64,000 nt of DNA from Bordetella parapertussis (GTDB lineage: Bacteria; Pseudomonadota; Gammaproteobacteria; Burkholderiales; JACQAP01). The notes below the pieces were generated by a model. It had not been told where the DNA came from. It did not search any database and worked only from the letters and a program-made list of their open reading frames with translations. Below are positions 28,618 through 30,693 of this stretch, in pieces; the first letter of the stretch is position 1; each line of letters starts with the position of its first letter. Position numbers and translations under genes: made by a program. The stretch lies in assembly GCA_945900965.1 (NCBI GenBank), contig CAMDKM010000002.1, positions 124,001 through 188,000 of the forward strand, in the 5' to 3' direction.

Positions 28618-30183
28618 TCAGTAAAATTCGTATTCTAGTCGGAGAATCGCCCGATTGTCGCTGGAAACGGAAGTCGTTCCAAACAGGAAGGCGGCGCTGT
28701 AGCCGATTTTGCTCTTGTTGCCAAGGCCGATGCTGCCGTATAAGGCCGGGCCGATCCAGTGCTCCTGAGTATTGAAGTCGCCACTATGGCCTATGCGGCC
28801 GGTTTCGCCGAATAGCTCCACAGCGGGTTGCAGGCTCGGACTCATGAGATATTTGGCCCGCGCACCGTAGGCGAATACCGTGCCGCTCGACGCACCGCTG
28901 CCGATTTGGCGCTCGAAGATAAGATTTGCGGTGCCGACCCATTTGTCGAATGTTTTTTCAAATATTGGCACCAGCTTCAGTTCGTCAGTACCGCCGTGGG
29001 CGGCGTTCTCATATTCGATCAGGAAGCCGAAGTCGGCAAAATACTCGCCCTGGTCGGTTAACTGAAAGCGGTTCTCCCACTCGAACGCTTCGCGAGTCAT
29101 GGGCCCGTTAGGTGGATTCTCGTAGCCTGCATAGAATTCGCTGAACCAGAAATCCGTGAACCCGTAGCCGCCGCCGATTTTGTGTTTCTGGCCGCCGTCC
29201 CGCGCGGCGTCATTGTCCATATCGTGGTAGCCGCGATATTCGACTTCGGCCTCGCCTTGATCGACATTGGGAGAATAGACCTTGTAGGGCGCGGCCTGCG
29301 TCTGGCTGGGCGCCGAGATCCACAGCGTAGTTGCAAATATTGCCGACACAAGCAGCGCAAAAGCGGGACTCCTGGATACAGGATGTCGTTTGCCAATAGT
29401 CATCATAAGTCCTCCGATAAGAGCAAAGGTTAACAAGTACGCGAGAATCTGAATGCCGGAAGGGTTCGCTACATAACCAATCAGGGCCTTGAGAAATTGC
29501 CCCAACAGCGATTGTTCTTCAATCAGCCACGAACTGTCCCAGAGTTGTTCGCCAAGAGCAGGGACCAGCCCCGCCTGCAGCAGAAAGCCCGCTGATTGGG
29601 CAGCGAGACCGCTGGCGAGAAACAGAATCATCGCGCCAGTAACGTTGAAAAAGTGCCGGAGAGGAATGCCGAGAATGCCTATATAGAGCAAGACACCCAC
29701 CATGACTCCGGCGCCGAGCCCGGCCAGCCCACCCACCGCCATTTGCCCGGCACTGCCGCCGCCGGCAGAGATGCCATAAAGGAAAAGCACGATTTCCGCG
29801 CCTTCGCGCAAGACCGCTAGTCCAATGGCGCTCGCCAGTACCCAAAGGGGCAGGGAGCCCGCAGCGATGCCGCGACCGACAGATTTCATCTGCGAGGCCA
29901 CTGCCTGGCCATGGCGGCTCATCCATACGTTATGCCAGCCCAGCATCAGCACTGCCGCGCCGAGAATGGATGCATTGAGAATTTCCTGGCCGACACCAGA
30001 AGCGGCTTCGCCGATGGCGCCGGCCAACGCGGCGATCACCATAGCCCCCACGATTCCCGCCAGCACGCCGGCACCGGCGACGGCGAAGCGGCCAGGCACG
30101 CCACGGCTCGCGGCCAGTACGATGCCTATGATCAAAGCCGCTTCGAGGGCTTCGCGAAAAACAATAACGGCGGTTTCAAACAT
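28618..30183 (-). CDS. FTR1-family iron permease fused in frame to an outer-membrane-like protein
   Basis: Residues 1-262 are an FTR1/EfeU-type permease with seven membrane segments and both iron-binding motifs, REALE (residues 10-14) and REGAE (about 126-130). Such permeases normally end near residue 270-280. Here the frame continues without a stop into a Sec signal peptide (KRHPVSRSP, a hydrophobic stretch, then SQTQA-AP) and about 220 residues of alternating beta-barrel-like sequence ending in RLEYEFY, a typical outer-membrane C-terminus. GGAGG plus two ATGs at the junction allow separate translation of the second part. The operon also holds a cupredoxin gene 9 bases upstream and a Fur box. 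Confidence 0.88.
   Translation of the reverse strand: MFETAVIVFREALEAALIIGIVLAASRGVPGRFAVAGAGVLAGIVGAMVIAALAGAIGEAASGVGQEILNASILGAAVLMLGWHNVWMSRHGQAVASQMKSVGRGIAAGSLPLWVLASAIGLAVLREGAEIVLFLYGISAGGGSAGQMAVGGLAGLGAGVMVGVLLYIGILGIPLRHFFNVTGAMILFLASGLAAQSAGFLLQAGLVPALGEQLWDSSWLIEEQSLLGQFLKALIGYVANPSGIQILAYLLTFALIGGLMMTIGKRHPVSRSPAFALLVSAIFATTLWISAPSQTQAAPYKVYSPNVDQGEAEVEYRGYHDMDNDAARDGGQKHKIGGGYGFTDFWFSEFYAGYENPPNGPMTREAFEWENRFQLTDQGEYFADFGFLIEYENAAHGGTDELKLVPIFEKTFDKWVGTANLIFERQIGSGASSGTVFAYGARAKYLMSPSLQPAVELFGETGRIGHSGDFNTQEHWIGPALYGSIGLGNKSKIGYSAAFLFGTTSVSSDNRAILRLEYEFY
29403..29415 (-). promoter_or_regulatory. internal ribosome site and ATG pair at the FTR1-barrel junction
   Basis: On the minus strand, GGAGG (29415-29411) is followed after 4 and 7 bases by ATG (29406) and ATG (29403). 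Both are in frame with the FTR1 gene and begin a complete signal peptide. Starting here would yield a separate 261-262-residue exported barrel protein. Confidence 0.65.
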
Positions 30184-30534: not shown

Positions 30535-30569
30535 GGCAGTGTCCTCGGTTAAAGAAATGCGGCAAAGCC

Positions 30570-30588
30570 AATGATAATGATTCGCATT
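30570..30588 (-). promoter_or_regulatory. Fur box
   Basis: The minus-strand reading AATGCGAATCATTATCATT closely follows the Fur consensus of inverted NATNAT hexamers. It stands 36 bases before the cupredoxin ATG, in position to cover the promoter. Fur-Fe(II) would repress the cupredoxin-FTR1 operon when iron is sufficient. Confidence 0.85.
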
Positions 30589-30693
30589 AATAAGTCAAGT
30601 CATTTTGCACATCAGTCGAGGAAAATCCTGTCAAAGATTTGAATTTAAGGATGTTTGTTGCCTTTGGCGCGGCCCCGGTCGATAATCTCGTCG

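Follow-up and report, generated by a model that had tools for sequence, protein, structure and literature searches.

A conserved fusion of an FTR1-type permease and an outer-membrane barrel as a putative polyprotein for two membranes

Within the window (the whole stretch of 64,000 nucleotides analysed here), one open reading frame joins an FTR1-type iron permease to a signal peptide and a predicted outer-membrane barrel, and the same fusion recurs in 36 further genomes. Our preferred reading, to which we assign a probability of roughly 0.74, is that its product is a polyprotein from which signal peptidase I releases an outer-membrane channel, leaving a permease in the inner membrane. With slightly less assurance, we also consider it probable that this polyprotein is conserved and widespread, its two products being made 1:1 and sorted to two membranes by an internal signal peptide that is cut. 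The features underlying this reading are collected in Table 1.

Table 1. Features of the fused gene and its operon, in window positions
Feature	Position	Strand	Basis
Fused open reading frame: FTR1 permease, signal peptide and predicted 12-stranded outer-membrane barrel, 521 aa	28618..30183	-	translation; stop-free in 36 other genomes too
Candidate FTR1/EfeU-type permease, 7 TM helices, residues 1-264	29392..30183	-	PF03239, modelled helices, loop charges
Possible internal start within TM7, unconserved in the family: GGAGG followed by an in-frame ATG pair (residues 260-261)	29401..29415	-	sequence, shuffles
Positive, predicted cytoplasmic linker and internal signal peptide that ends in TQA and has its hydrophobic core at about residues 273-289	29293..29391	-	sequence, model, loop charges
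Predicted signal peptidase I cut TQA297/A298, between 29293 and 29292	29290..29295	-	AxA-type motif, family-wide
Predicted mature 12-stranded outer-membrane barrel, residues 298-521, C-terminal end ...LRLEYEFY	28621..29292	-	AlphaFold2 pLDDT about 97; PDB barrel matches
Upstream gene of the operon, encoding a periplasmic cupredoxin of 113 aa	30193..30534	-	PF13473 E 5.2e-30
Fur box-like site ATTAATGCGAATCATTATC (15/19), overlapped by a second site at 14/19	30567..30591	-	best match in window

Two envelope proteins in one reading frame

Translation of the fused gene runs through all 521 codons without an internal stop. Residues 1-263 match PF03239 (FTR1) with an E-value of 6.7e-28 and 98.2 bits, against a Pfam gathering score of 25.3, and the AlphaFold model places seven membrane helices, at moderate confidence, ahead of the signal segment. 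Two REXXE motifs are present, REALE (R10-E14) in TM1 and REGAE (R126-E130) in TM4, and their R and E positions are more than 90% conserved across the fused set. This combination of Pfam score, motifs and helices marks the permease half as a candidate iron permease of the FTR1/EfeU family, with a predicted N-out/C-in topology. Against the EfeU equivalog NF041756 the fused protein scores 122.9 bits, below the curated cut-off of 255.

For the second half, AlphaFold2 (54 sequences in the alignment) predicts a high-confidence barrel preceded by a disordered signal peptide. The best matches among solved structures are outer-membrane barrels, namely 4rl8 (a COG4313 channel) and FapF, with autotransporter domains also found; VIA Z is 21.1 against 4rl8 and FapF 5o65, over 211-214 residues with an rmsd of 2.7-2.8 and 9-12% identity. 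The barrel-family profile yielded no match among PDB sequences, and the window barrel none in Pfam, including PF13557 (Phenol_MetA_deg), up to E 1. Among barrel relatives, 2 of 54 match PF13557 (best E 8e-4), and some match general outer-membrane barrel models. The fold shared with 4rl8 does not by itself make the barrel a member of COG4313/PF13557. The open frame, the PF03239 match and the predicted barrel bear out the sequence-only reading, which had a single frame encoding both permease and outer-membrane barrel; its claim of an iron-type operon, with a Fur box and a cupredoxin beside the fused gene, is upheld by the 15/19 site and the PF13473 match.

That 15/19 site is the best over all window positions on both strands. 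Each of the 17 fused loci inspected has a cupredoxin motif upstream, and in most of them the best Fur-box match exceeds shuffled sequence. The window genome encodes Fur-family proteins and signal peptidase I, and has only one FTR1 gene and one barrel gene; besides the cupredoxin, the neighbours of the fused gene are what we take to be mfd and ispD. The simplest reading of this arrangement would be an Fe(II) route made up of channel, cupredoxin and permease. Elsewhere in the family, a TonB-type receptor gene lies downstream of the barrel at one locus (L102), a cupredoxin accompanies the barrel in the absence of a permease at three (L071, L097, L135), and an RND pump adjoins it at another (L075). 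Because barrels adjoin RND pumps, or a cupredoxin where there is no permease, the substrate of the barrel family may include more than iron, with copper as a candidate.

The junction and the proposed cleavage

All 36 fused proteins tested carry an AxA-type site no more than 8 residues from the mature barrel (baseline 0.35) and a hydrophobic core before it, whose minimum 10-residue mean is 2.14 (barrel control 0.68); the cut site was assessed from motif and hydrophobicity. Loop net charges across the fused set alternate (+2.1/-2.0/+2.0/0/+1.8/-2.0/+2.2) and the linker is positive, which would place the linker in the cytoplasm and the signal segment running from inside to outside. A positive linker followed by a hydrophobic stretch is, judged by sequence, the layout of a signal peptide that would enter the translocon from inside. 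Over 50 codons at the junction, pN/pS for pairs of fused relatives is 0.07-0.62, with fewer protein-changing than silent differences, which indicates that the protein sequence of linker and signal peptide is conserved by selection.

The model leaves about 22 residues between signal helix and strand 1, roughly 8 nm when stretched, and the periplasm is about 20 nm wide, so that an uncut chain could not occupy both membranes. Given the AxA site, the signal-peptide layout and this short tether, we prefer cleavage by signal peptidase I. The sequence-only reading had argued that a fused form is hard to place in two membranes and had turned to a second start or a recent stop-codon loss. The difficulty is real for an uncut chain, but a second start would be dispensable, since an internal signal peptide would make the chain cleavable and remove the problem. 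Its expectation of two products from one gene now appears likely, on the strength of the internal signal peptide and the family-wide AxA site.

We propose that the FTR1 permease would be made first, with its C-terminus left in the cytoplasm as its predicted seven-helix topology implies, and that the following hydrophobic segment would engage the Sec translocon anew, acting as an internal signal peptide. A cut by signal peptidase I, presumably at TQA/A, would leave the permease in the inner membrane, and the spent signal segment would either remain as an eighth permease helix or be degraded. The freed barrel would cross the periplasm, and BAM would presumably insert it into the outer membrane as a channel of 12 strands. 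When iron is short, as sensed through Fur, the operon would yield the cupredoxin at the same time as the permease and the channel, the latter two in a 1:1 ratio, and the products would form an uptake route for a presumed substrate of Fe(II) (or Fe/Cu).

Several relatives (L063, L066, L088, L092, L146 and L147) have Phe at P2' of the predicted site, of the AQA/GFK and ADA/NFK type. E. coli LepB is reported to cleave inefficiently when the P2' residue is aromatic (PMC10269814). Such Phe residues may reflect another signal peptidase specificity or incomplete cleavage.

Distribution of the fused gene and alternative explanations

After removal of duplicates, the in-frame fused gene is present in 37 genomes, the window genome included, the named records being from Alpha-, Beta- and Gammaproteobacteria, at identities from 60% down to about 36%. 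In the order of the window, one genome of the same genus (60%) and one of another family (48%) carry the fusion (G001 and G009), and other members have separate adjacent permease and barrel genes. Of 80 loci recovered when GTDB contigs were scanned with a barrel alignment, 18 are fused, 50 have the permease as a separate gene and 12 lack an adjoining permease; additional fused genes came from samples of the class and of the phylum. Where a source is named, nearly all fused genes derive from metagenome-assembled genomes (MAGs).

Several candidates were set aside during classification. Long frames near separate barrels, such as L035/G181 (516 codons), are open but out of frame; L077 has a stop at the junction and is counted among the 50 separate loci; and in G555, G758 and G665 the two genes are simply separate. 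The barrel family is mostly proteobacterial, and its occurrence in an Elusimicrobia MAG (L090) and a Planctomycetota MAG (L110) may reflect horizontal transfer or binning error. A Hydrogenophaga plasmid (NZ_CP044976, 150424-152100; G051) carries a separate FTR1 and barrel pair, in two copies on one replicon.

In the concatenated tree, 36 fused and 3 split rows separate from 46 split rows with 99% SH-aLRT support, and the fusion is an old clade. The tree is rooted at its midpoint, and we infer the direction of change from that root. Fused and split states change 4 times on this tree and 5 times on the permease tree; the 4 changes are compatible with, and no proof of, one old origin followed by splits, which we prefer to repeated gain of the fusion. 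Later break-up of the fusion is the simplest reading of L064 and of the three split rows nested in the fused group. In L064 (5890-6816, a Parvibaculum MAG) the barrel gene lies behind a metal RND pump of CusA/CzcA type and keeps a degraded piece of FTR1 TM7 (SIGYTARTVPLRLLFLRQLCLIGGLMRS) ahead of its signal peptide; together with L062 and L090, it offers a natural split version for comparison.

A recent stop-codon loss, one of the explanations initially put forward for the continuous frame, or a sequencing error or assembly chimera, now has a vanishingly small probability. The draft assembly of the window genome has 103 contigs, and related lineages do have separate genes; nevertheless, the fusion recurs across that whole range of identities in 36 other, independently assembled genomes whose frames are likewise stop-free, it forms an old clade, and its junction is under purifying selection. 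The sequence-only reading had listed, as counting against it, homologues that are always separate genes with a stop at this site, together with a resequenced stop here; homologues are in fact fused in those 36 genomes. It is also quite improbable that the fusion stays uncut, the barrel being tethered to the permease as a single protein that spans two membranes or is anchored in the inner one. The frame is open and conserved and the AlphaFold model holds both parts, but such a protein would sit poorly with an AxA site retained throughout the family, with a tether too short to bridge the periplasm, and with the same barrel being a free protein in relatives.

Ribosomes might instead restart at ATG 29406 or 29403 and make a barrel with its own signal peptide of 37-38 aa, a full-length product being optional. 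The GGAGG (29415-29411) and the ATGs (29406-29404 and 29403-29401) lie exactly where they had been reported and at a suitable spacing. Among the 38 fused rows tested, the window SD energy of -9.5 is matched or beaten by 1 of 100 synonymous shuffles, and in the sister L061, whose best start is TTG, 3 of 100 are as good, both values being uncorrected for the number of rows; a start and SD that exceed 97-99% of shuffles in window and sister are not predicted by a pure polyprotein. The survival of the L064 barrel apart from its permease, with TM7 remains in front, and the ATG ATG that follows a stop in L062 also speak for such a start. However, the ATG pair does not fall exactly at the junction, as had been claimed: the model places it at residues 260-261, within the TM7 helix that spans 243-264, and the Met belongs to an 'IGGLM' stretch found in many fused permeases. 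When each ATG, GTG or TTG able to begin a signal peptide of 16-45 residues was scored, 12 of the 38 rows had no ATG in the possible start region and four, from three genomes (L088, L146, L147), had none of the three codons, so the family as a whole is independent of an internal start. As a set, fused rows exceed shuffles only a little in start and SD strength, and in 76% of rows at least 10% of the shuffles are as good; SD strength discriminates weakly, with overlapping values for fused rows (-5.3), separate genes (-4.8) and shuffles (-3.8). Signal peptides of separate barrels, moreover, are mostly 23-32 aa, below 37. We judge internal initiation an unlikely explanation of the fused gene: as a general mechanism it is not supported, given the TM7 residue and the start-less rows, while in the window genus, because the SD is stronger than expected there, internal initiation or dual use is possible.

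Implications and comparison with known systems

FTR1 permeases with cupredoxin partners have been known before, as has, from FbcH, the principle of a polyprotein. In the literature searched, we found no description of a permease-barrel fusion in one conserved precursor, and no outer-membrane barrel named as a partner for FTR1/cupredoxin iron uptake. Polyproteins are rare in bacteria, and the only precedent named, FbcH, has both products in one membrane. If the polyprotein reading is true, one natural precursor supplies both envelope membranes, a signal peptide can work mid-chain directly after a multi-span transporter, and translation can set the stoichiometry of inner-membrane permease to outer-membrane channel. 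An outer-membrane barrel family whose window member matches nothing in Pfam is thereby tied to FTR1/cupredoxin iron uptake.

The predicted 12-stranded barrel resembles the COG4313 channel Pput2725 (4rl8; PMC4493636) and FapF (5o65), but COG4313 is linked to hydrophobic compounds, whereas iron genes lie beside the fused-barrel family. Autotransporters (type V) share the barrel, as the structural matches indicate; here, in contrast, the N-terminal part is a predicted 7-TM inner-membrane permease and no secreted passenger. Close counterparts are also the adjacent FTR1 and barrel pairs of Burkholderiales and relatives, where homologues of both parts are arranged in this order but as separate genes, with a stop and an own start, on the opposite side of the main split in the tree.

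With EfeU/FTR1 (EfeUOB) and FtrC (FtrABCD), the permease half shares the FTR1 domain, REXXE, 7 TM helices and a partner cupredoxin, but differs in having a barrel attached. Among the genes adjoining the fused gene we found neither EfeO (M75) nor EfeB, as EfeUOB would have, and neither FtrA (P19-like) nor FtrD (polyferredoxin); of the FtrABCD partners, only a cupredoxin adjoins. A parallel in principle is FbcH of Bradyrhizobium japonicum, reportedly described by Thony-Meyer et al. in 1991 as a cytochrome b/c1 precursor that is cut into two proteins. Here too, one gene encodes a polytopic inner-membrane protein whose C-terminus is predicted to lie inside, and behind it an internal signal peptide leads into a protein for export; the window genome has no separate copy of permease or barrel, as would be expected of a polyprotein of the FbcH type. 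The two differ in destination: both FbcH products belong to one inner-membrane complex, whereas the second product here would be an outer-membrane barrel.
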